A DNA stretch of 64,000 nt from Laccaria trichodermophora (Eukaryota > Basidiomycota > Agaricomycetes > Agaricales > Hydnangiaceae): contig JACTVC010000023.1 in assembly GCA_018417955.1 (NCBI GenBank), positions 124,001-188,000 on the forward strand, given 5' to 3'. Positions 24,106 to 48,081 of this stretch are shown piece by piece. The notes under the pieces were generated by a model, which did not search any database, was not told the origin of the DNA, and saw only the letters and a program-made list of their open reading frames with translations. A program made the position numbers and the translations under genes. The first letter of the stretch is position 1. Every line of letters starts with the position of its first letter.

Positions 24106-24195
24106 CACAAGTATTAGTGACCTTACCCCAACAACACTGAGACCCCTGACTATACAAACAGGCCATAGTTGATGGTGCCTGCTGATGAGCCGATA
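24106..24195 (+). repeat. Left terminal inverted repeat of KDZ element
   Basis: Pairs with 47,992-48,081. The outer 27 bp are diverged between the two ends and the inner 60 bp are well conserved. Confidence 0.85.
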
Positions 24196-24670
24196 CATAT
24201 GTTGACCCCATCAAACCTGGCCCGGCCACCTATATATTCTTAAGGAGTGGTTCTATGTGCCGGCCGAGGAGCCTAATGATGAGTTGACCCCACTGAAATT
24301 GCCTTGGATTGTGGGTCAGCCGCTCTGTTCCAACATGGATTATGAGTCAGCTGAACAGCTTCTGATCCCTCACAAGGTGGATCAGCCCACCAGCCAAAAC
24401 TTGGCCCGGTCCAATCAGTTGACATACCGAGGTCATGAATCTCATTGTCAGCCCGAGGCCGGCCCAAAACCATTTTCCTCGTTTTATCCCAACTCCCCTT
24501 TGCCATTATTTCCCAAACCTTCTTTCGGCTGGATAATGTCCCAGGTCGGATGTGTCATTCCCTTGCCATAATGACTTGGCTTAGTGGTCAACGCTACAAT
24601 AATGATTGTCTTCTAACGTCACCTTGAGTGGTTACAAAAAAAAAAAGAGTTTGCTCTGTCGGTACTCAAG
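24196..24670. other. Subterminal region of KDZ element
   Basis: No gene. Contains a plus-strand half tRNA-like motif (ATGACTTGGCTTAGTGGTCAA at about 24,571, A-box only) and an A-run at 24,637-24,647 before the first full tRNA-like repeat. Confidence 0.45.
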
Positions 24671-25886
24671 TGACTTCTGGGATTCGAACCCAGGGTATAC
24701 ATACATACACTATGTACACCTCCCAGCTCAACCACTAAGCCAAGTCAGCGCTGCAAGAGGAAGTTGGGGAGTATCTTTTAGCTGACGACCATGTCACTCT
24801 AATATAGTTAGTAGTAAGTAAAAGACTGTTCAGGATAGCCAACATGACTTGTTAGGGATTTGAACCCAGGGCATACATAGATACAATGTGTACACCTCCC
24901 ATCTTAACCACTGAGCCAAGCCAAATTGGTCAGGATCTCAAGTCAATGTCGGCCTGCAAGCTCGGCACTTTGTAACTTGGTTCTCGGCCTAAGATAACTA
25001 TCAAAAAAATTACCCGTTCTCGGCCTAAGCTGACTAACTCGGCTCTGCAATAAGGGAGCATTGATTAGTAAAATTTAAAACGCAAGAAATCATGGGGAAG
25101 AATGAACTTGTTTGGGAATTGAACCCAAACTACATAACCTGCCAGCTTAACCACTAAGCCAAGCCAACGTTGAAGACGATGTCAGTCAGTATCTTTTAGC
25201 TGTTGACCATGTAACTGTAGTAGCAGTAAAAAGGACTGAAATAAATTCTGTGCAGTGACTTGTTTGGGTTTTGAACCCAGGGCATACATAGATACACTAC
25301 ATACACCTGCCATCTTAACTACTAAGCCAAGTCAATGTTACAACAAACTCTTTGTCAGTATCTGAAGTCAATGTTCGACCCTGCCTGAAAGCTCGGTACT
25401 TTGTAACTTGATACTGAGAAGTTACATGGATTCAGTCACTTACCTGGCCTAAAGCAACTTCCCGTTCTCGGTCTAAGACACCTAATCCGGGTCTGCAAGC
25501 TCGGTAAGAATTGATTAGTAAATTCTAGCCAGTGTTACAAAAATGAAAAAGTTGCGACCATGTTTTGAACGTTGCTGGGTTGGTGATCGGCTGAGGGCCT
25601 TCACTTCTGATTAGCAGCTAGGCTATGCAAGGTCGGTGGACATTTTGAATTCGCCTGGGTTGGCGGTCGGCCGAGAGCCCTGAACTCTGGTTACCAGGGT
25701 CAGCTGGTGAGACCTATTGTAGTCATGGTTAATTTTCAACATGATCCATAAGATATCGGTCAAACTAGCATTGATTAGTAAATTTTAACAAAAGAGTTTT
25801 GATAGGTGTAACTGACTTCTGGGATTCGAACCCAGGGCATTCAGACACTCTGTACACCTCCCAGCTTAATCACTAAGCTAAGCCAA
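24671..25886 (-). repeat. Five tRNA-like repeats, left group
   Basis: Copies at about 24,671-24,747, 24,844-24,921, 25,103-25,166, 25,256-25,334 and 25,813-25,886. Read on the minus strand, each has TGGCTTAGTGGTT (A-box), GGTTCGAATCCC or GGTTCAAAYCC (B-box), and ends that can pair (TGACTTG with AAGTCA), as in a tRNA acceptor stem. The central arm varies (TACATACATACA-type expansions). Between copies lie diverged stretches with CTCGGCACTTTGTAACTT and TTCTCGGCCTAAG. These are most likely tRNA-derived repeats, not functional tRNAs. Confidence 0.7.
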
Positions 25887-25922
25887 CGTTGGAAGACGAC
25901 GTCGGTCAGTATCTTTTGACTG

Positions 25923-28900
25923 GTGGCTACCACTTTTATCATAATACCAAGGCATATGCCTAGAGCTAAATATCTATATCTCAAGCATAATTATGAAAGG
26001 CCTTTCATTTGACTTGCTTATGTCTCTCATTCATTTAAATGCTGGGCTTCACTCATAAGTTGTAGAAGAATTACCCTTGAGATTTCATAAAGGTGGCTGG
26101 CAATTTCATTGCAGATTTTCATACTTATCTCTCGGTATTTCATTCTGAATTTCATATTTATCCCCACTGCTTTCATTGCAACTTTTCATTACTCAGCTCT
26201 CAATATTTCATTCTGAATTTCATAGTTATCCCCACTGTTTTCATTGTGACTTTTCATTATTCAGCTGACAGAATTTCATTCTGAATTTCATATTTATCCC
26301 CACTGCTTTCATTGCGACTTTTCATTATTCAGCTCTCAGTATTTCATTCTGAATTTCATATTTATTCCCACTGCTTTCATTGCGACTTTTCATTATTCAA
26401 CTCTCATTATTTCATTCTGAATTTCATATTTATTCCCACTGTTTTCATTGCAACTTTTCATTATTCAGCTCTCAATATTTCATTCTGAATTTCATATTTA
26501 TTCCCACTGCTTTCATTGCGACTTTTCATTATTCAGCTCTCAGTATTTCATTCTGAATTTCATATTTATTCCCACTGTTTTCATTGTGACTTTTCATTAT
26601 TCAGCTCTCAATATTTCATTCTGAATTTCATATTTATTCCCACTGCTTTCATTGTGACTTTTCATTATTCAGCTCTCAGTATTTCATTCTGAATTTCATA
26701 TTTATTCCCACTGTTTTCATTGTGACTTTTCATATTTACCCCCAATATTTTCATTGGGATTTTTCAGATGTATCCCACATGTCAGGGTCCATGCAATGGG
26801 CTTCCATGGAAGTGGTCACATGACCAGTTACCAAAGATGGTCAAAAAACAAAAGTTGTAGCCCTACAGTGTAGCTTCCCAAATCTGTTTGAATTGTATTC
26901 TGAAGTGTTCCCATTGTGGAGATATGAGGTAAAGGAATGTCAAAAGTGTCACGTTTTTTTTGTATTTTGTGTTTTTCTCTATGAAAACAAAACCAAATAA
27001 CATGATTTCAGTATATTTAGAAAGCTAAAAGAAAGGGCTACAATTATTGTATCGTGGGAAAAATGACCAAAAAAGGAAGGTGCATGCCCTACTATAACAG
27101 TCAGATATATGACTACAAAAAAGTTGGACTTATACTACACAGTTTACTGATGCACTATAAAAGACTACAAAAGTTGCACTTAGACTACAAAGTTAGGGTT
27201 AGGGCCAAAAGGTTATCTTGACTACAAAGTTTGTAGTGTTGAGCCTTTTCATTAGAAAAGTTTGTAGTGTGCGCTTTTTCATTAGAAAAGTTTGTAGTGT
27301 CCGCTTTTTCATTAGAAAAGTTTGTAGTGTTCACTTTTTGAGACTACAAAAGTTTGTAGTGTCCGCTTTTTCATTAGAAAAGTTTATAGTGTTTGCTTTT
27401 TGGGATTACAAAAGTTTGTAGTGTGCACTTTTTTATTAAAAGAGTTTGTAGTGTCTGTCTTTTGATTCAAAAAAGTTTGTAGTTGACATGTAATTTATGG
27501 TGTCTTTGGCCCTATCTATGTCATGGGATGCGGTTGAAGGATTGCCAGTGCTGCAGCATTGGTATTTGACATCATGCACAAGTTGTCTATCACAGTAGGA
27601 AAGGCCATTGATACCTGCTGTGCTATCTGAAAAGATAATTGTGAATTCATATGGAAATATGGCTGAAGGATTGGCATCACTGTATATATCATCAGTTTCT
27701 CACATCATGCCCAAGGTGTCTTTCAAGCTAGAGAAGGCTATTCACATTGATATCTACCCAAGAGATGGTCAACTTGCAACATGACCTGACTTAAAGACAC
27801 CTCAAAGGATGAATCAGCCCATCATATATCACATCTTGCCCAAGTTGGCTTTGAAGCTAGAGAAGTATATTTATGTTGATATCTACTCAATACATGGTCA
27901 ACTTAGAACATGACCTAGAACACCTCAAAGGATGAATCAGCCCATCATCCTACAGCCCTCAAAGAGCTGTATCAAAGTTGACTATGGTTGGGACAGGCCA
28001 GTAGTTATCAATGTGAAAGCAGACAGTGTAAAAGCCCACTTGGTCATCATGTCAAAAACTCATGATATCATGTCAATCCTTCAGCCACATATCAAATACT
28101 AATGCTGCAGCACTGGCAATCCTTCAACCTCATCCCATCACATAGATAGGGCCAAAGACACCATAAACTACATGTCAACTACAAATTTTTTTAAATGAAA
28201 AGGCAGACATTACAAACTCTTTCAATAAAAAAGTGCACACTACAAACTCTTGTAGTCTCAAAAAGCAGAGACTATAAACTTTTCTAATGAAAAAGCGCAC
28301 ACTACAAACTTTGTAGTCAAGATAACCTTTTGGCCCTAACCCTAACTTTGTAGTCTAAGTGCAACTTTTGTAGTCTTTTATAGTGCATCAGTAAACTGTG
28401 TAGTATAAGTCCAACTTTTTTGTAGTCATATATCTGACTGTTATAGTAGGGCATGCACCTTCCTTTTTTGGTCATTTTTCCCACGATACAATAATTGTAG
28501 CCCTTTCTTTTAGCTTTCTAAATATACTGAAATCATGTTATTTGGTTTTGTTTTCATAGAGAAAAACACAAAATACAAAAAAAACGTGACACTTTTGACA
28601 TTCCTTTACCTCATATCTCCACAATGGGAACACTTCAGAATACAATTCAAACAGATTTGGGAAGCTACACTGTAGGGCTACAACTTTTGTTTTTTGACCA
28701 TCTTTGGTAACTGGTCATGTGACCACTTCCATGGAAGCCCATTGCATGGACCCTGACATGTGGGATACATCTGAAAAATCCCAATGAAAATATTGGGGGT
28801 AAATATGAAAAGTCACAATGAAAACAGTGGGAATAAATATGAAATTCAGAATGAAATAATGAGAGTTGAATAATGAAAAGTTGCAATGAAAGCAGTGGGA

Positions 28901-29363
28901 ATAAATATGAAATTCAGAATGAAATACTGAGAGCTGAATAATGAAAAGTCACAATGAAAGCAGTGGGGATAAATATGAAATTCAGAATGAAATTCAGAAT
29001 GAAATTCAGAATGAAATTCAGAATGAAATTCAGAATGAAAACAGTGGGGATAACTATGAAATTCAGAATGAAATATTGAGAGCTGAGTAATGAAAAGTCG
29101 CAATGAAAGCAGTGGGGATAAATATGAAATTCAGAATGAAATACTGAGAGATAAGTATGAAAATCTGCAATGAAATTGCCAGCCACCTTTATGAAATTCT
29201 CAAGGGTAATTCTTCTACAACTTATGAGTGAAGCCCAGCATTTAAATGAATGAGAGACATAAGCAAGTCAAATGAAAGGCCTTTCATAATTATGCTTGAG
29301 ATATAGATATTTAGCTCTAGGCATATGCCTTGGTATTATGATAAACAGTGGTAGCCACTAGTG
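25923..29363. mobile_element. Fold-back element: 3.4-kb near-perfect palindrome
   Basis: The left arm from 25,923 (GTGGCTACCACT) and the right arm ending at 29,358 (AGTGGTAGCCAC) are inverse complements over about 1.4-1.6 kb, including the innermost parts near 27,480-27,570 and 28,090-28,190. Arms carry satellite arrays: TTTCATTCTGAATTTCAT units (26,100-26,740; inverted at 28,800-29,165), and AGTTTGTAGTGT units (27,210-27,490). The right arm has a local 12-bp expansion (28,979-29,038). The loop (about 27,570-28,080) contains a duplicated 125-bp block and no ORF. Flanks show ATCTTTTGACTG and ATCTTTTGGCTG, a likely target duplication. Long satellite-bearing inverted arms are typical of FB-type elements. 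Confidence 0.85.
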
Positions 29364-29403
29364 ATCTTTTGGCTGCCGACCATAATAGCAGTAAGTAAAA
29401 AAT

Positions 29404-31054
29404 TTGTTCGGGATTTGAACCCAGGGCATACATACATATACTACACACACCTCCCAGCTTAACCAATAAGCCAAGCCAAAGGGGAAGAGGATGTCAGTCT
29501 GTATCTTTTACCTGCCGACCATGTGACTCTAATAGCAATAAGTTTTTGAAGATGTCCAAGCAATGACTTGTTTGGGATTTGAACCTGGGCATACTACATA
29601 CACCTGCCACCTTAACCACTAAGCCAAGCCAATGTTGCGAAATGTTGGTCAGTATCTCCAGTCAATTCGGAAGACGATGAATTGAACCTGGGCCTGCAAG
29701 CTCGGCACTTGGTAACTTTACACGTTCTCGGCCTAAGATGACTACCAAGACAATCTGCTCGGTACTTTGTAACTTACTACCCACTCTCGGCACAAGACAA
29801 CAACCCCTTCTAGGGACCAGATGATGATTTGAACTGCTCAGCACTTTGTAACTTACCCGTTCTCGGCCAAAGACAACTAGTTCTCGGCCTAAGAAGACAA
29901 CTACCCATTCTAGAAATGTTGGTCACTATCTCCAGTCAATTCAGCGGACGATGAATTGAACCTGGGCCTGCAAGCTCGGCACTTGGTAACTTTACGCGTT
30001 CTCGGCCGAAGATGACTACCAAGACAATCTGCTCGGTACTTTGTAACTTACCCGCTCTCAGCAAAAGACAACAACCCCTTCTAGGGACCAGATGATGATT
30101 TGAACCGCTCAGCACTTTGTAACTTACCCGTTCTCGGCCAAAGACAACTAGTTCTCGGCCTAAGAAGACAACTACCCATTCTAGAAATGTTGGTCACTAT
30201 CTCCAGTCAATTCAGCGGACGATGAATTGAACCTGGGCCTGCAAGCTCGGCACTTGGTAACTTTACACGTTCTCGGCCGAAGATGACTACCAAGACAATC
30301 TGCTCGGTACTTTGTAACTTACCCGCTCTCAGCAAAAGACAACAACCCCTTCTAGGGACCAGATCTTGGAAGACGATGATTTAAACCGCTCAGCACTTTG
30401 TAACTTACCCGTTCTCGGCGTAAGACAACAGGTTCTCGGCCTAAGACAACTACCCGTTCTCAGCCTAACTCTGCAAGCTCGGTAGTTTGTACGAGGGAAT
30501 GGATGCCAACCATGTCACTTCTAATAATAGCAGTAAGTAAAAAATAGTGGAGAAGAATGAATGACTTTTTCAGGATTTGAACCCGGGGCATACAGAGATA
30601 CACTAAGTACACCTGCCATCTTAACCAATAAGCCAAGTCAATGTCACAACAAACTCTTGGTCAGTATCTCTTAGCTGGCGACCGTATAGCAATGTATGTA
30701 AAAAATATTCGAAGATGTACAAGCACTGACTTGTTTGGGATTTGAACCCGAGCAGATGCACTACGTACACATGCCACCTTAACCACTAAGCCAAGTCAAT
30801 CTTACAACAAAATGCTGGTCAACAATCATTCTAATAGAAGTAAACGTGTTCGGCATTTGAAGCTGGGGCATACTGAATCAGGGCCTGCAAGGTCGGCACT
30901 GACTTACTTGTTCGGGGGGTGAACCGGGCCATAAGACAACCGGTGCAAAAATCAAGTATTAAATGTCATGAGAATGACTTGTTTGGGATTTGAACCCAGG
31001 GCATATATACATAGAGCATGAAGCACCTTCCGCCATAACCACTAGGCCAAGTCA
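29404..31054 (-). repeat. Five tRNA-like repeats, right group
   Basis: Same family as the left group: about 29,404-29,478, 29,563-29,632, 30,562-30,640, 30,727-30,799 and 30,974-31,054. The last has a longer, altered centre. They flank the fold-back element, which therefore inserted into a pre-existing array. Confidence 0.7.
29639..30480. repeat. Tandem repeat, about 272-bp period, three copies
   Basis: AAATGTTGGTCA recurs at 29,639, 29,913 and 30,184. Each unit contains GCCTGCAAGCTCGGCACTTGG, GCTCGGTACTTTGTAACTTA and GTTCTCGGCC. The units are over 90 percent alike by eye and contain no gene. Confidence 0.85.
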
Positions 31055-31217: not shown

Positions 31218-31264
31218 GCATGGTCTAATGGTAGTTGCGTTCCAGGTTCAATCCCCGGCCATGC
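31218..31264 (+). repeat. Truncated tRNA-like sequence
   Basis: Begins GCATGG and ends CCATGC (pairing acceptor ends), with TGGTCTAATGG as A-box and GGTTCAATCCC as B-box, but only 47 nt long because the anticodon arm is missing. A tRNA relic or SINE head, not a working tRNA. Confidence 0.55.
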
Positions 31265-31791: not shown

Positions 31792-32078
31792 AAGAGCATG
31801 CGGCGTAACATGGGTCTCTTAATACATATCATTCCATACCTGTAACGTTGAATTTGTCCAAAAAAAAATTATCTGCGCTTTTGATGGGCCGCCTTAATCA
31901 GCCGGCCATAAGCATCGGGCTGCACCAACGCCAAGATGGAGCCGAGTACAAGGCCATCAATACCCTCTCACCCTAAATTCAACGTAATTAATATATTTCG
32001 ACATAATGAACGACAATGCCCTGGCCTCATGTTTTGGGAGATAAAAAGTCAATGGGATTTTTATTTTTATTTTTAACC
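31792..32078. other. Short spacer upstream of TET/JBP gene
   Basis: 287 bp with an A-run (31,858-31,868) and AT-rich sequence ahead of the ATG at 32,079. Presumably the promoter region; no defined motif. Confidence 0.4.
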
Positions 32079-33276
32079 ATGACTCCCTCTCAATGTTCAC
32101 AAGATTTAGCTCACTACATTAAAGGCCGGCTTCTAAGTTCCAGAATGCCATTGATTCATCCTCAGCCTGCTAGACCAACATGGCTTCTTCCATCCGGACC
32201 TCAAGTTCAAGTTGAAAAAGTCATTAGGATGCTCAAAGAAGCCTGGAATCAATCATGTAAGTCCGATGTTCAACTGGCTGTATCAGACAGGCTAATAAAG
32301 CCTCTCCAGATCAAACTGACTGGGATGTCCGAGATTACGTGGCCGAGTTATCACTGAGGCAGAATGGAAGCAATGAGGATTTAGAAAAGAGACTCTTAAC
32401 AAGATTCCCACCGATCTACCAGTCAACATCGACGGTCGACATCCCTTACCTTGATAAACCTTGCCACATAACCGACAAGGCCGGCCATATTCTTCTGTGG
32501 TACTTCCCAAAGTTATTCTCAGAAGACCTTCAGGTAATTATTTCCCCCAATAACTGAGACGTTTTTAACTCGGACCTGTCCAGGAACTGATTTGGACCCA
32601 GACGGAGAATCTAAAACCCAAAAGGAAAAATAATGGGAGTTGGCGGGATCAAATCCACCCCGACCACGGTAGCAAAACGACCGGCATAGTAAATTTATCA
32701 CCCGGCTGGTTCTCCCAAGGACATGAAGGTCCTGCCGATCCACTTCATCCTTCCTCCGATATCCAACAGGCCAGTAACCTAATCTATCTTAAATCACTCT
32801 CCTTCATCAATGCCGTTATCTCTGCCATATACTCCATCATTCAACCCGACCTATGTGAGTCAGGATTTGCGGTCTTTGACAAGCTCGCCGAGGACGGCCT
32901 GCAAGATCAAGCTACCAGATCGGCTCTGGGAGTGTGGGGTACACCTTTCACCGGCCTTTCAGTCATCATAAACAGAGAGACAATTACCCACCGAGATGTA
33001 AAGGGCTATAGGGAGTCTTTCGACATGTTGTTGACGATCGGCCAGTACGACCAAGGTCGGTTTTACATGCCCGGGCTCGGATTCAGCCTCCTTTATGACC
33101 CAGGAACTCTTGTGGGCCTGGCTGGCAATGTGTTGCCACATGGCGTTTGTCCCGTTGTCGGTGACCGGGCCTGTTTGGCTCACTTCTGGCATAAAAAGGT
33201 TGGGGAGAGGCTTGACGTCAAACCACCTCAATGGCAAACAATAGAAGAGCTGACTCGTACAATACTGGCTATGTAA
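32079..33276 (+). CDS. TET/JBP-family 2-oxoglutarate/Fe(II) dioxygenase, intact
   Basis: TET/JBP enzymes oxidise the methyl group of 5-methylcytosine (TET) or thymine (JBP) in DNA. Exons 32,079-32,256, 32,310-32,533 and 32,584-33,276 join in frame to give 364 residues. The C-terminal catalytic domain shows FTGLSVIINRETITHRD with the metal-binding H270-x-D272, a distal His in LPHGV (H320) and the 2-oxoglutarate-binding Arg in GDRACLAHF (R329). The central YMPGLGFSLLYDPGTLVGLAG is the conserved core of the fungal branch. No DNA-binding CXXC domain is seen. All key residues are present and no frame break was found, in contrast to the nearby transposase. It is convergent with the next gene, whose stop is 11 bp away. 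Substrate (5mC or another base) is inferred from family. Confidence 0.87.
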
Positions 33277-33287
33277 TGTATGTGGAA

Positions 33288-34118
33288 TCACTCCGGCCGC
33301 TGGCATACCCTGAGCTTCTCAGCATCAAGTTTGGAAGACAAATATACAAGATCTTCCCACTCCCTAATCTGCCGCGTCATGAGATCGACCTCGGCCTCGG
33401 CATGTTCAATCTTCTCCACGATGAGTTCCCGCGCTTGCTCCAATTGTGCTTTAAGCTGGCTGACGTCCTCGGGTGATAGGGTTGATGTTTGAAGGTTTGT
33501 TCGTGCAAGTGGCAAAGCGCCATCGGCAGCCCACTTATACCACTTGGCTGACTGGCTAAGCATATAGTAGATTCCCTCCTTCGGATAGCTTTTAGGAGTC
33601 GTCCACCATGGAAACTGATATGAAGGCCGAACAGCATCTCTTCGAATTGCGATGTCGGGGTGAAGAGGGTCACGTTGAATACAGCTTCTAAGGAACGCGG
33701 GGACCTCAAACTGGGGCCGACGTCAGCAAGTAAAAAAGCGTTCGGGATGGCTTACCTCATGCCCATGAACGAAGGCCATTCCAATACTATCAATCATGAA
33801 GCCCTTTCCAAAGCAACAAGGTTAGTCGCGACCAGATCCAGAGAAATCAAGGTGGCTCACCACTTCGGCCGCATAATACTCATTCCATGAGATTTGGAAC
33901 TCGGGCTCGATAGGCTTTGCAAGCTTAGCCGCGTGAATGGCCCTAAATCGAGATGACCAGTAGTCGAGCACTTCCTGGAACTCCTGCTGGTTCTCCCACA
34001 GTAGACGTTTACCAAAATGTGCTTCAAACTTTTTTCCTTCAATCATATCCTTCATCCAGTCAATTTCAACCTGCAGCACAGGGGGTACTGGTGTTGAGAG
34101 TACTGGTGTAGAAGACAT
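33288..34118 (-). CDS. KDZ-element cargo protein with C-terminal coiled coil
   Basis: Start ATG at 34,118 (MSSTPVLSTPVPP). The first exon ends at 33,861 before GTGAGC; a small exon reads GFMIDSIGMAFVHGHE and ends at GTAAGC; the last exon reads FEVPAFLRSC...WWTTPKSYPKEGIYYMLS and finishes in a heptad-like stretch (KAQLEQARELIVEKIEHAEAE). About 220 codons with no broken frame. It lies between TET/JBP (convergent) and the transposase gene (same strand, about 35 bp downstream of its last stop). No known domain is recognised. Confidence 0.6.
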
Positions 34119-34152
34119 GGTGGTGATGGATAAAGATGGATGATAATCTAAT

Positions 34153-37100
34153 TCAACCAAGATTAGGTAATGCAATGGACTGGCACATGACACCGGCATT
34201 TATAAATTCTTTCGTGGCCTGGAAGGCAAGCTGTTTCCACATACTGATTTGTCCCTCCGCAAAGGAAACATGTCCCGGCTTGTCTGGCACCAAGTCCCTC
34301 AGCCCGGTCCACTCCTTGGCTTTGTTGATGAAAAAGAGCCGGGTCCAGTTCATTTCGTTTGGGATCAAGGTATGCTCTTCCAACCAACGGTCATACCGAG
34401 CTTTTGCTCTAAGCCAATTCACCCGATATACTATTGGGTTGCTTTGGTTTCAATTCTTCTAGAGGGTATGAAAGTGGTTGGATCTGACCTTGTTCCATGT
34501 AAGTTGAACCCAACGAATCATCCGCCACGGCCATATTCCAGAACCATGGCAAAGCAATATTTCTTTGACCCGGGCGTTGCCATCGTATACCGTAGTTAGT
34601 GCCCTTGTATCTTTTTTCCCTATCGGCTTGTATCGGTCACGAGTGCCCCTAGGAGCATTGAGCTGATTGAGAGCCCATCGAGCTTGGTTGTATGCCCGGA
34701 GAGCACTTTTCATATCGCGATCCGATCCTTGTACAGCATCGTAAGCCCGAGTTACACGTTTTTTCGATTTCTCGGCTCGAATTCTCCTGCGATAAAGGAA
34801 TGACTTGTAACCGATGGCTTCACGTAAACGTCTCAGAGCGTTATTTGCCTGGGCCACTCTCAATTCTATCTCTATGCACCTGGCTTCTCCCAGTGATGTA
34901 GGCAGAAGGGCCGATTGGAATGAGGATGGTAAGAGAATTTGTTGATGTTCGGCCGATCCATACCCCCGATCAGGCATACTGGGTACAGGAATCTCCTCTC
35001 CATCACAATCGCTCCAGTCATCGTCATCCACGATCTCCTCCGAGAGCGGTGGATCATGAATAGTTGCTTCATTGATATCCAAGCTGGGAAAATGGCCTTG
35101 ACCGGCCTCGGAAAACTCTTCAAGGTGCTTCGACAGCTTCTCTCGACGTTTCATGATCTCCAGCTTCTGATCGGCACTTGGACGACTGCCTTGAGCCTTC
35201 ACAAAGGCGGCCAATTCGGCTCTGGATTGTTCAATGTTTGAATCTAGCAATATCTGACTTCACTCACTGGGCTTCCTGAATTTTGATACCGCTGTTTACC
35301 CATCCAGTTAACCCCGGCTTGGCCTTGCCTTCCTGTTCTTTAGTCATAAGTTTTAGCCGAATGCCCTTTTCGGTCTCGGCTGATTCAAGGATTTTACAGC
35401 TGGCATTTGTGATGGAAAACGGTCCTTACCTTCCTTGACCTTGACGTAATAGATGTCCATGGCGGAAAGGTCCTTTGCCCGGTTCAAATTTGCCGTTTTG
35501 ATCTGTTGCTCCCATTCTTGAATCTGTTCCTTACTTGCCGAGGCACTTAATTCTTCAAGAGCCTGGAAGCTCTCAGAGAGCCCGAGTTTTGCTCGTTTCC
35601 ACTTCTTGCAAAGGCTACTCACTTGACTTTTATTAGCTTAACAGCGATGTAAAAGCAGTTGAACATAGATACCCATATTGATCATTTTTTTCCAGTTGTT
35701 ATCTAGCATGTGAGCGTCCAATACCTCGGATCTATGGGCCAAAGTCATGGTCCGGGTGGTGCGACCGACCTCGTTGAGAACAGCCCACAACGTCTCCAAG
35801 ATCTCTCCATCTGTTTGACCGGCCCCGGGGATGAATGTTGGGGCAAATCTTGGAAAGCATATTTCTTGATGGCCATGGACATGGAATAAGCCGATCCCGA
35901 ATACCAATAACAAGTCCGGTCTGATCCAGAGGTGTTTGGCACCACGTTTTATCCGAGCCATCAAATTCACCATATACTGGCAGTTGATGTCATAGACAAA
36001 AATAACCCTTTTTTCTTCACCGGTCATGGTATTCTTTAGAGCCTGGCACAAGGCATAGTCCATGTTCATTTGCCTGTTTCGTAAATGAATGGTTCAACCT
36101 GAAGATAACTGCCATACCGTTCTCCCTTTTGAAAATCTACCACCGAGCCCGGACAAAATGTGCCGTGGCGAAGGCAAGCGATGGCCCCAATTCCTGTAGC
36201 ATCGAAACCTCGGTGGAATACATTTTTATTGTTGATGGCATCGTGCTCATGACATGTCCTCGGCTGAAAGAATCAGACATCGGCCGACTTGCTCGAAGGA
36301 TAAAACTGACATCATTATCTTCAATGGCGTCCCGAAGGTGGCTCAAGTAGGGCCCTCTTCGGGTCATGAAACCATGGCCATCTTTCAGCCAAACATCGTC
36401 CTCGGGTCATGCCTGTTTCTGGTGTGGCAAGAGTAAATAATGTTGATTGTGAAAAACTATGAACCTCTACGGTGTTATGCATAGTAATACATCACCTATA
36501 CACCTAAGGAATGAAGTAACAAGGCAGGATCCCAAGAATCCACTGTCTGAGCTGGAGAACCAAGCTCCAGTTCATCATCAACAACAATGGTAGTAGCCTT
36601 TCCTGCCCGAATGTCATCCAGCGTCGACTGCATATTCCATCGTTTTAGGCTGTTTTGTTACCAATGGGTGTAAAATGGGCGTGAACAAATTCGTCCATGG
36701 GATGTCCTCCCTTTTTAGACATTCCGAGTAGTGAAAACTCGGTATATAGTGCACATAAAATTTTTCATCCCTACAGAAGCGGACAGAAGCCAAAATTATG
36801 TAAAGTAGCTCTCGCCACCACTCGCCACCCCATTACTGAATTTTTTGATCGCCAGGTGGCGAGGCCTGGTGTGGCGAGGAGGCGAGGTTGAGCCCACGTC
36901 ACTAGGTGTGCTGCTGTGAAATTGCCATCGGCTACAAATCCTCGGGTATACTTCCAATTCTCTGGATCTTCAGGATTTTCATTCCAATCATCAGGCAGAT
37001 TGACTCCGGGCTGTGGGCAGGTTGGGCAAAAAAAGACCATCTCCCCTGGTCTTGGAGCCTTATCTTTGTGTCCAAATCCAAAAGTAGCCAGTTTGGTAAG

Positions 37101-38147
37101 ATTACGATATTGCCTACCAGCCCTGATCAACTCATGATACCGGTTCTGTCAAACATTTGAGTTTAGGGTTATAGCATCTTGAATAACATACCGGAATGGA
37201 ATTTGGAAATGCAAAGTTGGTGATTCTTCTCAATTTGGAGTAGTAGTGGGTGGCCGAGGTTTTGCACTCGAGATTTTCCAGCAGGTAGTCATCGAGGAGT
37301 TGAAAGGTAAAGACAGTTTGGCAAGACTTGTAGGTGGATGGGTACAACCCAACCCGGAACAACTGTATGTCCTCGGCAGCTGCCCCCGAACATCCACAGA
37401 AGACGACCGGCAGGTGATGCACACCCGAAGTATGGACGATGGTCATGACCCTGCCACCATTGTAAACCCTATCTGGTGGCTTTGGATCGGCCAAAGTGCT
37501 AGGAAGGTCTTCAAGATCAAACCATCCGTCCTCTTCGATGTCAAAATCGGTATCCAAGTTTCTGGCTGATTGAGGGCACCATTCACCTTGGTGACCTAGG
37601 TTGACAACCAATCCTACTTTCCAGAGCCAGCTCTGTTCGTAAAAGATGCCGGTCCATCGTTCAATCCGGTGGAATGGGTCTCGGCAGTGGGATGTCCGGC
37701 AGCAGTCTGTACAATATGCGGGGCCGGCAAAGCAATCCAGACATCGCCAAGCCGCCTCCTTCTTGCAAATGGTACAAACGCAGATTGAAGCCTTCCTCTC
37801 CAAAAGCTCATGGAGGTATAGATTGCGTTTCGTCTGTTTCCAGACCCTCATATAATCATTGGATGACTGAACAAAGTTAATTTAGCGCTTAGTATATGGA
37901 TATATTGGATGTGAAATTTTACATTTTTGTGAGGTGGATTGTCAAGAGGAGGGGCGTATTCAATGTATGGCAAATCTTCAGTTCCAGTTTCATTGTCTCT
38001 TTCCAGGTGGCTGCAGTTCCGCTTTTTTACAGGAGAAGAGGGCAGGGAGGGAACAGTGGAGGAGGGAAAATGCCTCCTTCCATTTTTTTTTATAACAAGC
38101 CTGTTATAGTGGGTAATACCAGTGGTGCTGTGGGACCTTCTTCCCAT
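34153..38147 (-). pseudogene. KDZ transposase with CxC2 cysteine cluster, one stop and one frameshift
   Basis: Starts at ATG 38,147 (MGRRSHSTTG). Exon 1 38,147-37,923 is basic and disordered. Exon 2 37,866-37,192 has the CxC2 zinc cluster (CTICKKEAAWRCLDC, YCTDCCRTSH, PFHRIERWTG). Exon 3 from 37,145 gives YRNLTKLATFGFGHKD and CPTCPQPGVNLPDDW. The catalytic block follows: DGNFTAAHL, TGIGAIACLRHG, VVDFQKGER|QMNMDYA, VYDINCQY, HVHGHQEICFPRFAP, GAGQTDGEILETLWA, then NWKKMIN and the C-terminal YRVNWLRAKA. This is a full-length KDZ architecture, a DDE-type cut-and-paste transposase. Damage: an in-frame TGA before PEDDVWLKDG (about 36,408) and a one-base frameshift near 34,560 before ALPWFWNM. A 0.47-kb non-coding stretch separates DGNFTAAHL from the next exon. 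Confidence 0.87.
36430..36899 (-). other. Unusually long intron or insertion in the transposase gene
   Basis: About 470 bp between DGNFTAAHL (donor GTGACG) and the exon beginning KQA. Other introns in this gene are about 45-60 bp. It contains inverted and repeated TGGCGAG motifs (36,810-36,890) and a short minus-strand open run. This is probably an insertion that is spliced out or that inactivates the gene. Confidence 0.55.
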
Positions 38148-39137
38148 GGGTGATTATTCAAATGAGGGGGAAAGGAAAAGGAAAGTGTAGCCGTTGAATA
38201 GCAACTGCAAATATAAACAAGTGAATCTCATTTCCTGCTTGTTCAGCTTCTGTGGAGTTTATAAAAGAACTAGGACATAATTTGTGCTTGAGAATGGTTC
38301 ATTAGGATATATACAACCAGTAGGTTTGGTTTTCTACTAATACTAGAACCAGTAGATGTATGTGCATGAATTTGATTCCGGTCAGACTACCCACATGGCT
38401 ATCAACCTGGCCGCAATGCTAGCATACTTAATTGACCTCATTAGACCGCCACCAGGTATTTTCTGATTGACATGGTATACAAGCAAGCAGTGGACCCATG
38501 TTCATACTACATCCAGGTACAAGAACCAGTAAAGCCATGCATGTATGTGTGCGCAATTGATTTCCCCATGTTCTCGCAATTGATTTCCGGTCAAACCACA
38601 CATAGCCGTAACACTAAAATAAGTCGCAATAAACAATATTTTCCTGTAAATCGGAAGCACCATGTGCATCTTGCTTCTTTGAGACAATGAATGAACCATC
38701 TTCACTTTCTCCAGTTCTTTTTCTTGGAAAATGTTCACTTTTCAAACAGAATGTTAAGTCCGGTCAATTTTCTTTATCTTCTGCAAAAATGGTTGCCAAT
38801 TAACCTAGATGTGCCAGCTATCCCAACTGTACTGGTTTCAAGGTAGTTTCAAGGTGTAGTTTAATATTTCTTATCTCAGTATTCCTCAAGTCATACAGAA
38901 GTGGTTCCGATGATGATCGTCAGGGTCACAACCTTTTTGATGTTTCCGTTCCGTGATGGTTTCTCCCGATCATTACTGTTCCGTGATGCAACAACCTTAA
39001 CGTTTCCGTTCCGTGATGATGCTAATCTGTGATCGGCGCTCATCACAGATATTTTTAGCAAATCGAAGTAACACTCCTTGTTTAGACCTGTTTGGTCATT
39101 TACCTCTTGTCATCAAACCATCATCATACATCCCGTT
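38148..39137. promoter_or_regulatory. Divergent intergenic region with repeated GTTCCGTGATG motif
   Basis: About 1 kb between the transposase start (minus) and the next gene (plus). Three copies of GTTCCGTGATG lie at about 38,948-39,018, 75-190 bp upstream of the plus-strand ATG at 39,138, and ATCACAG-type inverse partners follow (39,043-39,049). The repetition is seen; a role as a binding site is inference. Confidence 0.45.
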
Positions 39138-41742
39138 ATGAGCACTCGTTCCGAATCCCCTAAACCATCCGACAGTCAAACCAAGCACCATGGGTCAGGG
39201 AGGTGTTGGACAAAGGAAGAAAGCGAGTTGTTGGAGAAACATCGGGATGAGTATAGAGAGGCCGGTGACTCAGCTCGTGCCAACATATTGTCTGATGTTT
39301 TGCAAGAAATGCTGGACATACTCGCCAATGGAAAGATGTTCAACAAGGAGGAGAGAACGGCTGTGAAGAAGGTAACTAATTTTCATGGTCTAGATATTGA
39401 ATCCCCTTCTGATTGATTTTTAGGATATCAAGGCTTGGTTTGGGCGGCACAGTCGCAAAAGAAGCCAAAAAATGCCGAAGTTGGGTCAGCAATGGCACCC
39501 CGACGTGTGTTCCGACATGAGAATAAGGAAGCCATTGATACCGAGGCTACCAAGCTCTGTATAGAAGCCAATCAAGCCGTGAAACCCGGCCTAAAGGGGG
39601 AGAAAGGACTCACTTTGATTTTCGGGAGCGGGTGGTCACTACAATGATGGAGAAACTTACAAAGAAAGAGGTGAAAAGGTTAGAGAGGACGGCCGAGGAG
39701 TTCAACAAGAAGGGGGTGGACCCCGAACTCAAGTCAAAGTGAGTAATTTGATTGTCAATGTTGGTTTCTCTGAATCTGTCGTAGGTTGGCCGTGAAGAAC
39801 TGCACTGCTCGGATGCATGCCTTTTCCAAGGAGATTTATGACACAATGGGTGTCCGAGTCTTTATATTTGGCTGTTACCTGAAACCCGATGGCACTTTGG
39901 ACGTCTCAACCTACGACTTCAATCAAGAACTGGGCAATGGAAAGGACTACATCAATAGCCACGGCCGCAGTTTCCAAGAAGATGGAATAACGGTAGCTTC
40001 TTGGAGAGGACACAACGAAGACCACTATGGGTCTGATGAGTTGACTTCGGCCGAAGGAGGACACCGAGGTGGCCGGGCAGCCATGACTCTGGAGATGAAT
40101 AACTATGGGGAGCCCATTTTGCCCGATCCCTCGAAGCCACCAGTTAAAACTTCCCGTGATGTCCGAATTTGGCGACTAAATCTTCTTCGTTCTTTTGTGA
40201 ACCAGCATTATAGTAAGTACGTCCAAGTAACCCTTTATTATTATCCAACTTTTCTATCTATTCAGATATTGCAGCTGGGCAGAAAAAGGGATCAGCTCCC
40301 TGGACAGCTATCGGAGCAAAGTTGTCCAACTTTGTGGATAAGGAACACATACCCGAGGCTTGGAGAGCAGTAACCTCGGAGGGGGATAACCTTTACAAGT
40401 TTCTCGATCCCTCCAAATTTCCGATGGAGATGGTCAGTCAAGCTCTACAATTTTGGTATGAACGTCAAGAAAAAGGCAAAGTCGCGTTTCGATTCAAAGC
40501 CTTTTTGGAGGGCAAAGCGGTTCGGGAAGCACCTCCCCGGCAGAAAATCAAAGTTCTAGTTTCAAAACGACAAGTTCATAGTGTTGGGAAGGGAAGAAGT
40601 TTGGCAAAAGCAAGGGTCAAAGGAAAGGCCGGGCGGCAACCGAGTCCTTGTCAGATGAGGAAGCTTTAGTTGGGCAGGGAAGGAAGGGAAGGATCGAGTG
40701 CGGGTCAGATGATGAAGCTCGGCCGACTCGAAAGAACATAGCATCCACGAGTGGTTGGGAGGACTCCCATACCGAGTCCGGGTCAGACGGGGAACCTCGG
40801 TCTACAAGAACGAATGGGGAAAAACCCCAAGATCATTGGGACTCTGATGAAGAAGCTCGGCTGAGCATTGTAAAAGGAAGGCCAAATCACAAGGACACAG
40901 TGGAAGTGGAAAAGCAGGGAGTTCAGCCGACGAAGAAGGCAGCCAACTTAAAAGGAACCAAAGCCGGGTCAGTCGAGGAAGCTCGGCCAAAACACAAAGA
41001 TCAATGGGACTCGGACTGTGATGTTGAGAATGAGGAAGCTCGGCCGACGAAGGAGAAAGCAGCCAAAAAGATCAACTTAACCACAAGAAAATGGGATCAA
41101 TGGGACTCCGATGTGGAAGAGGAGCAACCTCGGCCCAATAAGACAAAAGCAGTGAAGTTCGAAGGGTCAGAAGCAGCAGCTCAGAAAGATCAATGGGACT
41201 CCGACTCAGATGTGAAGCAGGAAGTTCGGCCGATCAAGGAGAAAGCAGTCACCAAGCCTGAGTCGGACTTCGAAGCTCGGCCAATAAAGAAGGCTACTGA
41301 TAACCCTCAACCTAAAGGAAAGCCAGGACCCAGTGAAAGCTTTTGGGAAATGGACTTGGCGGAGCCGTTGGGTGGACGTAGGATGAAAAGAAAATACAGT
41401 GACAATGAAGAGGATGCCCTCCCGAACAAGACTTCTCGGTTGGAGGCCGGTTACAAACTTGGCCCCAAAAACGGCCGACCTGGTAAAATCAAGAAGGTTG
41501 GTGGTTCCAGTGTCATGCAAGACGTTTCCATCGACAAACCATCTACCGAGGTCGGTCCACATGCCAGTCGCGGCCCATCAATGAACGTTAATGTAATCAA
41601 GTCGGCCATCCCTTTCAAGGCAAAACCTAAACCTCGGCCCATCAAAGGCAAGGTGTCCACCGAGCTTGGCATTGTGACCCGAGATCGGTCAAAGAGAATT
41701 GCTGGAGAGAGTGTCCGAACCACCCGATCCATGAAACGGTAG
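39138..41742 (+). pseudogene. Repetitive acidic/basic cargo protein with several apparent frameshifts
   Basis: Exon 1 39,138-39,371 encodes a helical N-terminus (CWTKEESELLEKHRDEYREAG). The following conserved-looking blocks lie in different frames: KAWFGRHSRKRS, then APRRVFRHENKEAI (shift at an A6 run near 39,465), then FDFRERVVTTMMEKL (shift at a G5 run near 39,597). A spliced exon follows from 39,785 (MGVRVFIFGCYLKPDG ... DFNQELGNG), then after an intron near 40,215-40,265 APWTAIGAKLSNFVD. A further shift near 40,585 leads to the long C-terminal ORF (40,648-41,742), in which DQWDSD and EARPTK units alternate about six times, then a basic tail. The domain order resembles a hypothetical family common near basidiomycete transposons. 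Whether the shifts are real decay or assembly errors cannot be told from the sequence. Confidence 0.6.
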
Positions 41743-41840
41743 TTTAGATATTTTTGCCTTCTTCAATTAGAACAATGTCAATTCATTTCGTGTTGGGGTT
41801 TAAGACCGAGTTCATAATTGCAAAATGTACATAATTGTAC

Positions 41841-43338: not shown

Positions 43339-43767
43339 TTCTGAGAAGGCAGGGTTGTAACGGTGTCGGCAAGTAAAAGCCCAAACTAGATACCTTCCTG
43401 CACCTCCCTACGCTCCAAGTCTTTCATTACAATTTCTGCTCCAAAAGAATTAGTGACAATGGTTGCCTGGATGATTAGACATTCTCCTACCCGGGTTTGT
43501 CAAAGACATATCAGCCATGGAGTAGATGGCTTTTCCAGGGATTGCAGTTGCTAGTGAACGTTGTTCGAGAGAAAGACCCATTGTTTTGTTCGGCCTTGCG
43601 ATGGCCCTTGAAAATTCAACCGTGGGAAGGAAAGCCACCGATGATCGGCCTTGGAACATTCTGTGGATCTCAACTAGTCTGATGCGACCACGTGACTCCG
43701 TTTACAACTTTTTGACTTCAACTTTCATCGTTGTCCCGTTCTAATCCTTCGTCCCATTCCAACTCCA
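43339..43767. promoter_or_regulatory. Divergent promoter region between two cargo genes
   Basis: 429 bp separates the starts of the F-x-F repeat gene (minus) and the next gene (plus). No distinct motif; CG-rich patches. Shared regulation is plausible from geometry only. Confidence 0.4.
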
Positions 43768-46700
43768 ATGTCCTCCACCCTTACCATAGAAGCTAAAGCC
43801 CACAATCTGGACCCCGGGTTTTTGGACGATGTTAGGTTCCAAACAGAATCACTTCTGAGGTTCTTCAATCGACATCAAACGGCTCTTATGAATTCCAATG
43901 ACGCCAACCGACTGACGTTAGAAGCACGTGCCTGGGAGAAAGCTGTAAGTAACTACCTTATATTTTCTTAAATGACACTTAGTTTCACCAAGGTAACATT
44001 GGTAAAGACTTTGTCAGGCAAGCAGCTGTGGTGTGAGGAATCCCAGTGGCTCCATCCCGCAAGGATCTGGGTATACACCGACATGTTGCGAGTCATGGGG
44101 GGGCCCTCGGTCGATTGGAGCAGACTCTATGCAGTCCCGCACACCACCACCCCTACGTTCTTCATGGAAAGTTACGAGGGCCCCTCTCCCCCCATTCCTC
44201 CCATTACGTCAACCATTCCGACATCGGCAAATTCGTCGCTCCCAGCCGAATCTTCTCTACCCCCAATATCGGCAGACACACAAGCGTCATCTGTCCCGAT
44301 ACCGAATTCGTCGCTCCCAGCCCAATCTTCGTTGCCCCCAATATCGGCAGACACATCTGTCCCAATACCAAACGCTCCCCAACGCCAATCAACTCCAGAA
44401 GCCGGCCCAGCACCAGAAAAGAAGCCAGCCGAGCCCAAACCTCAACGAAGTCGAGCAAAACCCGAGGCCGACACGAGCAGTGGGAGAAAGAGGAGAGGGG
44501 ACTCCTTGGACGATCGGCCGAGGAAGACCCGCATCGTCAGTGCACAGCTTATCGATGAAAGCAGCGCTGAGGAGACAACGCTGAAGGAGACAACGCCCAA
44601 GCCCAATGCACGAAACTCGGGCAACACTGCCAAGCCGAGGTCGAAACAACAGCCGGTCGTCGAGATAACTGTAAAGCCCAAGTCCAAAGCGACACCTCGG
44701 GTTGGCCCAGAGACAGCTGCAAAGGTGGCACTGAGGGCCCAGGCATCGGCAGAGAAGCTTGATAAGCAGAACGCGGCCATTGAGACGGGAGAATACAAGC
44801 TTGCCGTTAAGCCCTGTGTAGCCTGCAGTAGACGAAAGGACAGAGAGACCGTCCCATGCGCAGAGAGCGCCAGAGATGGGCTCGCCGCCTGTTTCACTTG
44901 CAACACGGGCAAGACGAAATGCAGCAAGGCAGGGGGTGATTCGAAGAAGACTGAGGGGGAGGAGGCAGAGGAAGTGAAGATCGTGGTCAAGAAAACCAAG
45001 AAGCGCAAGGCAAAGAAGGATGAAGAAGCCGAGGACGGGGGAGAGAAGGGAAAGAAGAAAGCCAAGAAATCGAAGGCTAAGAAGTCGGAGGATGTCAAAA
45101 TGGCAGAGGGAGCCGAGGACGGGGGAGAGGAGGAAAGTGTTCTTGTTCGAAAACCCAAGAAGGCAAAGAAGCAGGACGTAGAAATGGCCGAGGTTTCTGA
45201 GGGAGAGACATTCGATTTCGATTCTATAAAGGAGGAGGATTCAGAGATGGTGGACATGACCTCGGGTGTAGAGGCCGAGGTCGGTACTTCCTCCCGACCT
45301 GACAAAGGCAAGGCGCAGGCAACTCCAGCCATCGTCATTGAACGACCAACACCAACACCCCCAGTCCAACCCAAGTTGAGTCTGGCCATGGATGAAATGC
45401 CCACCATGCCTGACGTCGGGCAATTATCAGGTAAGAGTTTATCAAATCAGTTTTTCCTTACTAACCAGCCTAGCTTCCCTCATGCCCAACCTCGGGCAAT
45501 CATCAGGCATCATGGCCGACCTCAGGCAATTATCAGCAGCAGGGGACCTCGGGCAATCATCAGGCATCGTGGCCGACTTCGGGCAATTATCAGCAACAGG
45601 GGACCTCGGGCAATCATCAGGTAAGATTCAATCAAATCAGTTTTTCTTTACTAACCAAGCTAGATTTTGCTGCAACGCCCATCGTGCCTGACCTCGGGCA
45701 ATCATCAGGTAATGCTGCCATGCCCATTGTGCCCGACCTCGGCCAATCGTCAGGTAAGACACTATCAAATTAGTTTTTCCTTACTAACCAACGTAGATGT
45801 TGCTGCCCTGATGCCTGGCCCGATCCCAGCTCCTGCCAACGACATTGGGATCTTAGCCAATAGCGCTCCGGCCTCGGTCGACATCTTCCCTTCCCAGCCC
45901 AAGCAGTCGGTTTCGAACTCACGCCGCGTCAGTCCCCCTCATGCCCAAGAACTTCATCGTAAGTTCTTTTATGTTTTCATCGGACTTCTTTGCTTAAAAA
46001 CTTAGTTGATACAGCACTGCATATCAAGAAGGTGGATTTCAGGTCCCTCAGTCCGCCACCGGCATTCGACATGTATACAATCCAGCACGAGATTACGAGA
46101 CTCGGTCAAGATCAGACCGACATTCAAAACACTCTCCGCGAACAACACGCTCGGCTGACCATCATGTCAGAGCATACTGGCATTGACCCGAGCGCTCTTC
46201 TCCCCCCATTCGTGAACACCACTTCACTCAGCGAACGTCTGGCCTCCCTGGAAGAAATGACCCAGAGACTTCAAGAGGTTGAATCTGCTGGTGATCGTCT
46301 TGCTGAACAAGTCAAAACATTGGAAACATTGTCGTGGTTCGAAGAGGAAAGAAGAATGAATGCACACAACGCGAGGATAGACCGATTTGAAGACCTTCAC
46401 CAAGCACGGTGGAAGGATGCCGAAGCCAGGCTCGAAGACCATCAGATGGACTTGTGCACGATAAGGGTTCAGCATGAAGCTTTTGAGGGGGAGGTCAGGA
46501 ATATGATGAAGGTGACGCCGGCCGCATTGCAAGAACAGGTCAAAAAGTCTATGGCCGAACTTACGAACCGAGTCCACCAGGCCGAGCAAGCACAGGAGAC
46601 TCTGACCACATCATATAGGACACTTACCGAGGGTCAGATAAAACTTGGTAACCGACAAACGATTGTGGAGCAAATTGTCCTCAACCATTTCGGACGCAAA

Positions 46701-47093
46701 GTCATGACCGACGCCCAGATCGATGCGACGAAGGGGACGGCCAATATCGGCATCAACACGATGAAGGGTACTGTGGATATTGGCATCAACACCGATAGAT
46801 CAGCAGAGGAATCGGTCCAAGCATCGAGCCCGGCCCCAATCCAATCAGCAGCTCCTCCGACGCCGGTGCAAGCTTTGAGCCCAGCTCCAATTCAATCAGC
46901 AGCTGTGCAAGGTTCGAGCTCGCCTCCAATTCAACCTTCGAATTTGGTTCAAGCTGAGAGCCTGGCCCCAATCTATTTGGCTCCAAAGCCAGTTCGTGCA
47001 ACACGCCGCGGCAGATCACCCTCTCCCTTCACAGTTGGCACCAGGAGGTCTCCTCGGCTGATAGCTTCATCTGGTATGTCCCCTGCTTCATAG
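43768..47093 (+). CDS. Cargo protein: Pro-rich, Cys cluster, acidic/basic tracts, coiled coil
   Basis: ATG at 43,768 (MSSTLTIEAKAHNLD). The first intron 43,945-43,992 is in phase. The long second exon carries duplicated Pro/Ser segments (SSLPPISADT at two places), a Cys cluster CVACSRRKD...CAES...CFTCNTGKTKCSK (44,815-44,930) resembling a small zinc-binding knot, and Lys/Glu-rich tracts (KKAKKSKAKK). Three 43-bp introns of nearly identical sequence follow (45,431-45,473; 45,621-45,663; 45,754-45,796), separating repeats of DLGQSSG. After the intron 45,959-46,005 the last exon encodes a long coiled coil (LSERLASLEEMTQRLQEVE...) and a Ser/Pro/Gln tail. Possibly a DNA-binding adaptor of the element; function is not established. 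Confidence 0.6.
45425..45800 (+). repeat. Tandemly duplicated exon-intron units
   Basis: GACCTCGGGCAATCATCAG-type exon repeats each ending TCAG|GTAAGA, with three 43-bp introns sharing ATCAAATCAGTTTTTC and TTACTAACC. Between the first two introns the exon repeat itself is present several times without intron. Confidence 0.85.
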
Positions 47094-47991
47094 TAATGAT
47101 TCAACATCTAAATACCAGTAGATGATCATCCTACGACTCCCACTAATGAAGACCCGCAATAATCATACTCCATATTTTGTACTGCCTGTTCTTATCTTGT
47201 AACTTCTTGTCAATATAAAGGTTTTTTTGTGTCATGTTCTTTGTAAAAGAGAAAAAGAAGTACTGCAATCTTGAAGAAATAAAACTAATCTGAGGGGTAA
47301 GCTAGAGGGGGACATTCAAGAAACTCTGCCGAAGTGCTTTACCTTGGCCGGGTCAACTGAACCACAATGTGCTTCGCGGTAGTATGTTCGAAAGGCCGGA
47401 TTGTGTTCAAAAATTATCAATTTAGAAACGAGATATCACCTTTGGGACTTGAACCCCGGTCCTGACCATCGGCTGCTGTAAAATATACCGACCGATGTTG
47501 TCTTGGACAAGTATAAAGATAACATGGTAGAAATATTGACCAAGCAGGAACGACCGGGTCTGGCTCAAGCAACCGTGCTCGGCTGCCTAAAATAAAAGCG
47601 AAGGGGAAAACAGATACCGATCCATCTAGAAAAGGGGTAAAAAGTTGGCTGATCCAGAGTTTATGAATTGTCCAGTTTCGTCGGCCGACTGGGTAGCTGT
47701 ATCCATTTGCTCGACTAATCAGCCGAACCATAGCTACAATAATGTGAATCCCAACAGCTGACCCCTCAAATCAGAATTTAAGGCTCTCGGCCGATCATGA
47801 ACCCAGGAACATTCAAAACTGTCAGCCGACCTTACATAGCTATCATCCATCAGCTGATATACCACCTACTTCTCTCTGGGCTTACTTCCTGCTGATCCGG
47901 CTGTGCTAAATTTACGTCGCTGGCCGACCCTTCACTACCTCAACAGTGGGGATGACATCGGCCAATTCATCAACACCAGGTTATTGTCTCT
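47094..47991. other. Right subterminal region of KDZ element
   Basis: About 0.9 kb without a supported gene. AT-rich near 47,150-47,280 (likely 3' end of the preceding gene), then a sequence with GGCCGA / TCGGCC motifs scattered every 30-60 bp (47,350-47,990), which may be subterminal transposase sites. Confidence 0.45.
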
Positions 47992-48081
47992 TATCGGCCC
48001 ATCAGCAGGCACCATCAACTATGGCCTGTTTGTATGGTTGGGGCTCTCAGTGTTGGTGGGTGATTCCTACTAACTGCCCTG
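47992..48081 (-). repeat. Right terminal inverted repeat of KDZ element
   Basis: Inverse complement of the left terminal repeat. The last base is followed immediately by the duplicated target TAATCCT (48,082-48,088). Confidence 0.85.

Follow-up and report, generated by a model that had tools for sequence, protein, structure and literature searches.

TET genes are very numerous in mushrooms such as Laccaria and Coprinopsis, where they may act for the host or for transposons. In a 64-kb stretch of Laccaria trichodermophora DNA (contig JACTVC010000023.1, positions 124,001 to 188,000; hereafter the window), a TET/JBP dioxygenase gene and a KDZ transposase gene lie between the defined ends of a single 24-kb element. 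The element very probably belongs to a family of large TET-bearing KDZ transposons that multiplied recently and are Kyakuja-like in target-site duplication (TSD), ends and TET type. Exact ends, near-identical copies, mostly open TET genes and a conserved companion gene set make the host-versus-transposon question testable in this family.

Ends, insertion site and copies of the element

Coordinates are positions in the window, and the assembly searched for copies comprised 59.0 Mb in 77 contigs. The element is delimited by the following features.

24106..48081, + strand: whole element of 23,976 bp, two later insertions included; very probably a Kyakuja-like KDZ transposon with a TET gene; delimited by tips, TSD and empty site
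24099..24105, + strand: left TSD, TAATCCT
48082..48088, + strand: right TSD, TAATCCT
24106..24195, + strand: left terminal arm, with a strong inverted repeat confined to positions 22-90
47992..48081, - strand: right terminal arm

A sequence-only reading of the window had proposed that the flanks duplicate TAATCCT and that an interrupted R2 unit is continuous without the element. The heptamer was confirmed at 24099-24105 and 48082-48088, and flanks fused with a single TAATCCT aligned unbroken to two R2 paralogues in the same window, at 61723-62064 (90%) and 53766-54244 (81%). As these alignments of the joined flanks are continuous, the empty site is real. The window sequence contains no N. The 90-bp terminal repeats of the same reading stood in their inner portion only: 71 of 90 positions match between the arms, with a strong match at positions 22-90 (63/69) and a poor one in the outer 21 bp (8/21). 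The best 69-nt inverted match in a control of 20 random pairs of 150-bp window pieces was 32/69.

Nine copies were compared, of which seven are large (the window copy, C33, C20b, C69, C76a, C45c and C10) and two are small (C8 and C12). The tips CACAAGTATTAGT and CTAACTGCCCTG were identical at the ends of all nine (eight retrieved with flanks, plus the window copy), and the termini CACAAG..GCCCTG, present in 9/9, are of the 5′-CA..TG-3′ type. Perfect 7-bp TSDs flanked five of the nine, namely the window copy (TAATCCT), C20b (GTGGTAA), C10 (ACAATGC), C8 (TCCTCCC) and C76a (GCTGTGC), and C12 had a duplication matching at 6/7 bp. C76a is itself inserted in the right end of another copy and so has two right tips, 181 bp apart; its TSD was assigned with the inner tip, where GCTGTGC fits.

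The left end matched at least 40 places genome-wide and the right end at least 41, and the genome contained 76 Tet_JBP and 182 KDZ matches when counted exon by exon. Nineteen Tet_JBP places, the window's score group plus neighbors, were typed for landmarks. The left end lay upstream on the same strand in 15/19, the companion gene G4 downstream in 16/19 and the right end in 12/19, some of the missing parts falling near contig ends. The spacing from TET to G4 was 6.39-6.60 kb in 12 of the 19 places, and the Tet_JBP match was free of stops in 14, two of which are partial matches. A search for other copies with the same ends, genes and gene order, as suggested by the sequence-only reading, was thus productive: such copies recur elsewhere in the assembly, with all three landmarks together at 8/19 typed places. 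In the large copies, seven in all, gene order is constant for TET/JBP, the KDZ transposase and the five others, apart from C76a, which has lost the block from the transposase to G4.

In long aligned blocks C33, C20b and C69 were 98.5-99.6% identical to the window copy, with 94-97% identity in one shorter block each. Identity to C76a, C45c and C10 was 93-95% in the first kilobase, rose to ~98-99% over the following 6 kb and returned to ~94% on the right, with 86% in the last 2.3 kb of C76a. This mosaic pattern suggests recombination between copies, and the right halves of the copies fall into two haplotypes.

Two small relatives, C8 (7.7 kb, with a perfect TSD) and C12 (6.0 kb), have the same ends as the element. 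Neither showed a match to the TET, transposase or G4-G7 open reading frames (ORFs), and a Pfam scan of nine C8 ORFs detected no KDZ and no Tet_JBP domain. At least 13 end pairs spaced 5.7-8.1 kb apart, C8 included, were paired by eye among the matches listed. If the ends are enough for movement in trans, elements that have them but give no TET or transposase match, such as C8 and C12, are to be expected, and the small relatives fit the description of non-autonomous elements moved in this manner. One short C8 ORF (1078-1593, - strand) reached 28.1 bits for Pfam GDH2_N, where the cut-off is 27; no single stretch passed, and this match is probably spurious.

Repeats also border the element. The left flank contains 67-bp tandem repeats (23508-23842) that are ~74% like tandem repeats within C76a. 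A dispersed repeat adjoins the right junction (48253-49600) and recurs at 13266-14622, 11060-11378 and 51811-52129, the copies in the window being 95-99.7% identical; it also is found inside C10.

Genes of the element and their conservation between families

The sequence-only reading had described one bounded unit with a TET/JBP gene, a KDZ transposase gene and at least five more genes, and this description was upheld. The genes and the two later insertions are as follows.

32016..33276, + strand: TET/JBP dioxygenase, 385 amino acids; exons 32016-32256, 32310-32533 and 32584-33276
33291..34199, - strand: G2, companion ORFs of 144 and 125 amino acids; 44-48% amino acid identity in family 2
34408..38156 (limits approximate), - strand: KDZ transposase gene with CxC2 cysteine cluster; Pfam KDZ 1e-29, CxC2 7.4e-27
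39138..41743, + strand: G4, 815 amino acids in copy C33; DQWDSD-type repeats; frameshifted in the window copy relative to C33
41840..43338, - strand: G5, ~480 amino acids; repeated IFDFQKP-like motifs; C-terminal helical part
43768..45625, + strand: G6, ~590 amino acids; six-cysteine Zn2Cys6-like cluster conserved in family 2
46071..47094, + strand: G7, ~340 amino acids; coiled-coil-like by eye
25923..29363, no strand: later insertion, a fold-back element foreign to the original element, with 68-bp tandem repeats and arms of up to 700 nt that are 99% complementary
36427..36904, no strand: later insertion of 478 bp within a transposase exon

The TET reading frame is open in the window copy when spliced at introns placed by GT..AG. 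The product matches Pfam Tet_JBP (E=8.7e-32) and the Coprinopsis protein CcTet (7vpn; 2.8e-30). With HRDVKGYRESFD aligned to CcTet, it retains HxD (as HRD) and the distal His, and CcTet Gly331 and Asp337 have Gly and Asp as their counterparts. This is the AG-type pattern of HxD, Gly/Ser at 331 and Asp at 337 (PMC12730594). The enzyme probably oxidizes methyl marks on DNA. The transposase combines the KDZ transposase domain (PF18758) with a CxC cluster as is characteristic of the KDZ superfamily, and the two G2 ORFs adjacent to it may be separate from the transposase gene.

No Pfam family scored above cut-off in the companion ORFs scanned (G2, G4-G7). DUF713 in G7, and PhoU_div and V-ATPase_G_2 in G2 of C33, scored under cut-off and were rejected. 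The cysteine cluster of G6 (C-x2-C-x10-C-x10-C-x2-C-x6-C), all cysteines of which are kept in family 2, resembles by eye a Zn2Cys6 cluster. Fourteen homologues of G5 were found, one in Laccaria bicolor at 63% and the rest at 37-48%; G4 had eight, of which seven are from L. bicolor, and G7 had three, with L. bicolor at 88%. In one L. bicolor relative of G4, most of the best-matching segments reach 88-98% against the second family.

This second family is represented by an element of 21.4 kb (C1:843680-865104) whose ends are 75-79% identical to those of family 1, to which the window copy belongs, and in the same orientation. Between these ends the body runs the other way, window 31245-46121 aligning in reverse orientation with C1 18639-2326. 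Match strands also show an inverted body in C19 (both ends and TET) and in C26 (left end and TET only). The same seven genes (TET, G2, KDZ transposase, G4-G7) are present in family 2 in the same order and with the same relative strands.

The ratio of nonsynonymous to synonymous divergence (dN/dS) between the families was calculated by the Nei-Gojobori method for a single pair of elements, for which dS values above 1 are near saturation. The ratio was 0.17 for TET, 0.33-0.48 for G2, 0.13-0.25 for transposase segments, 0.14-0.31 for G4, 0.31 for G5, 0.34 for G6 and 0.30 for G7, thus spanning 0.13-0.48 over 13/13 segments and 0.14-0.48 for the non-transposase genes. Values of dS were 0.76-1.84 for the other genes and 0.18-0.44 for transposase segments (0.77 near CxC2). 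A transposase segment at window 34115-37451 was 88-91% identical between families compared to 62-77% for other genes where alignable (BLASTN). The lower dS of the transposase suggests that the families, once separate, exchanged part of this gene. With the order of all seven genes preserved, dN/dS under 1 and synonymous divergence near saturation outside the transposase, TET and its five companions look like a maintained core gene set, kept by purifying selection between families. The dioxygenase had been taken for cargo in the sequence-only reading, a view that is not sustained as the seven order-kept genes look like core genes of the element.

Within family 1, few differences were observed in comparison with C45c, and ratios were below 1 wherever dS was nonzero with the exception of the TET domain, which is considered below. 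Insertions and deletions in G4-G7 relative to C33 were in multiples of three in 13/15 cases in C10, 12/17 in C45c and 11/13 in C76a, three copies that share ancestry.

The window copy had been described as a complete 24-kb transposon. Its ends are defined; completeness fails in that two later insertions are present, and the transposase and G4 are broken relative to C33. The fold-back insertion is missing from 6/6 other large copies and probably is flanked by an 8-bp duplication, ATCTTTTG, the uninterrupted site of which was read in four copies. The 478-bp insertion is missing from 5/6; the sixth, C76a, is without the whole region. Together the insertions account for ~3.9 kb of the 24 kb, so that the original element would have been ~20.1 kb, and the full lengths of C33 and C45c are 19,728 bp and 19,302 bp, respectively. 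Single-base deletions relative to C33 were found in the transposase (one) and in G4 (three). Thus, the transposase is broken by the exon insertion and a frameshift, and G4 by its single-base deletions, unless the one-base differences are in part sequencing errors. Elsewhere, single-base deletions occur in C69 and C45c, and a stop interrupts the TET match of C33, C10 and C20b. Palindromic repeats like the fold-back element sit at other places in C69 and C76a, and further large insertions (~5.7-11.3 kb) are present in C20b, C69 and C10, the one in C20b having inverted ends and ATTTGTCCC repeated at its edges.

A transfer RNA (tRNA)-derived array beside the TET gene

The segment between the left end and TET is occupied by an array of short repeats.

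24670..31053, - strand: array of 10 tRNA-derived units, interrupted by the fold-back insertion
24742, 24918, 25161, 25329, 25880, 29473, 29626, 30635, 30793, 31049, - strand: A-box 5′ ends of the units

Each unit contains an A-box-like sequence, TGGCTTAGTGGTTAAG, and a B-box-like sequence, GGTTCAAATCCC, that begins 36-53 nt after the start of the A-box. Ten units are present in the window copy, C33, C20b and C69, seven in C76a, C45c and C10, and two in C12; none were found in C8 or in the window outside the array. The family 2 element on C1 has eight units that are flipped along with the body, plus one elsewhere in the element on the other strand. A pattern derived from the units gave 168 matches in the genome, and its reversed control gave 0; of the 100 matches listed, 97 are no more than 12 kb from a typed Tet_JBP match or an element end. 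As these 97 places are near TET or element ends, a dispersed short interspersed nuclear element (SINE) is disfavored as the source of the units, and the array appears to be specific to the element. Three tRNA-like units at C1:5240612-5241665 lie away from any typed Tet_JBP match or element end.

One unit (24670-24742) was identified as tRNA-Tyr by ARAGORN. Rfam at the gathering threshold gave nothing in the window; with E values up to 10, the Rfam tRNA model scored three units at 20.6-23.4 bits, under the cut-off of 29. A genome-wide tRNA search gave none in the window among the 63 of 2749 candidates that were scored. A cloverleaf could be drawn for one of four units folded. In a covariation test on 18 units the score was 0.100 versus 0.097 for shuffled sequences, no excess over the shuffled level. 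In a tRNA-like fold 85.9% of cells were paired, compared to 84.5% after shuffling, with the observed value reached in 10 of 500 shuffles; sliding the fold gave no more than 56%. In view of the covariation result, the claim is limited to descent in sequence and to the A and B boxes, and does not extend to a selected fold. The units were chosen by A- and B-box similarity, which biases box conservation upward; an independent repeat search (families D8 and D9) finds the repeats without this bias.

Known relatives and rival readings

Kyakuja families that bear TET genes, with 7-bp TSDs and CA..TG termini, were published for L. bicolor in December 2025, as passages of that paper describe (PMC12730594). 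The bounded unit that the sequence-only reading had offered as new is therefore of a kind already known, and the parts that may be unexpected are the seven-gene core and the tRNA-derived array. The L. bicolor elements, as given in those passages, resemble the window element in KDZ transposase, AG-type TET, 7-bp TSD and CA..TG ends (PMC12730594), homologues of G4, G5 and G7 exist in that species, and the window element may belong to the same family as one of the L. bicolor families. The main-text passages of PMC12730594 drawn on here mention no Kyakuja companion genes, tRNA-like array, body inversion or exchanged transposase segment; among the titles and abstract openings listed for companion genes, tRNA-like or TFIIIC features and Kyakuja, none other than that paper describes them.

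More distant comparisons are provided by KDZ1-KDZ3 of Cryptococcus neoformans, which passages of PMC12810828 describe as mobile in a reporter assay. These have a KDZ transposase with a CxC cluster and long inverted ends as here, but are ~9.2-11 kb with terminal inverted repeats (TIRs) of 139-241 bp, CxC1 rather than CxC2, TSDs of 8 bp (KDZ1) or 4-8 bp (KDZ2, KDZ3), and no TET gene in those passages (PMC12810828). In the IS3EU elements of rust fungi, which carry TET and an alpha-kinase, TET likewise is at a constant place between the transposase and another gene, whereas the transposase superfamily differs and the TET is PU-type, according to passages of PMC12730594. Zisupton, for which the same source gives an 8-bp TSD (PMC12730594), differs in this respect, the TSD being 7 bp in all five copies in which it is perfect.

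Under the favored reading, the KDZ transposase would cut at the conserved common ends and reinsert the element by cut-and-paste. The TET enzyme, by its predicted activity, would oxidize 5-methylcytosine (perhaps N6-methyladenine) on element DNA and so allow escape from methylation silencing, as passages of PMC12730594 propose for TET-bearing Kyakuja. The putative role of G2 and G4-G7 would be to assist through DNA binding, chromatin contact or complex assembly. As its own transposase is disabled, the window copy would need an intact copy acting in trans, and its own TET could still serve the family. A more elaborate proposal is doubtful, namely that the element is a self-contained anti-silencing island in which TET would strip methyl marks, the 7-10-unit A/B-box array, by recruiting TFIIIC (or RNA polymerase III), would provide a chromatin boundary or a platform of open chromatin, and G4-G7 would be chromatin partners; the body would flip between the ends and swap its transposase segment with sister families while the module stayed intact.

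Other readings give the TET gene or the repeated locus a different role or origin. Service to the host through genome-wide methylation control, with the element retained for that benefit, is unlikely. The stop-free match in 14/19 typed places (two of them partial) and the open TET beside a broken transposase in the window copy favor it, but many copies are tied to the transposase and element ends, and a primary host role likewise is argued against in passages of PMC12730594. Chance capture of TET and its companions as host genes without a role in the element, for which the five companions devoid of an above-cut-off Pfam domain and the small relatives that move without these genes might speak, is quite improbable: two families share these genes, in one order and with matching relative strands, at dS of 0.76-1.84 outside the transposase and dN/dS of 0.14-0.48 for the non-transposase genes, and G4 is 6.39-6.60 kb from TET in 12/19 places. 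Three of nine copies and the family 2 copy without a TSD, and the two right-half haplotypes as a sign of recombination between copies, could point to segmental duplication or recombination of one large locus in place of transposition. Identical tips in different flanks, perfect 7-bp TSDs in 5/9 copies and a clean empty site in the R2 repeat make that origin highly improbable.

Several observations weigh against a recently multiplied Kyakuja-like family with a maintained gene set. The TET domain within family 1 had a dN/dS of ~1.2 (0.0074/0.0061) on few changes, and selection on TET is therefore seen only between families. The anti-silencing role of TET is a predicted one and the helper roles of G2 and G4-G7 are putative, and structure predictions were of low confidence for G4 (8 sequences, mean pLDDT, the predicted local distance difference test, of 31.2) and G5 (13 sequences, 43.5). 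Two Kyakuja families of L. bicolor are reported without TIRs, which is not stated as a criterion in the passages of PMC12730594, in contrast to the inner inverted repeat of 63/69 here. Finally, no TSD was found at C33, C69, C45c or the family 2 copy on C1, and an explanation is at hand for C69 only. This copy is a 28.9-kb contig. Its left 7-mer, CTTAATT, recurs at C76:14768 (left) and C20:13711 (right); the 7-mer on its right, GGTTGTG, recurs at C29 (right) and C32 (left). Thus, C69 would consist of two real insertions wrongly joined in the assembly, which would explain its missing TSD. The crossing 7-mers also suggest that C76 and C20, and C32 and C29, are neighbors, each pair joined by an element of the same family as the window copy.

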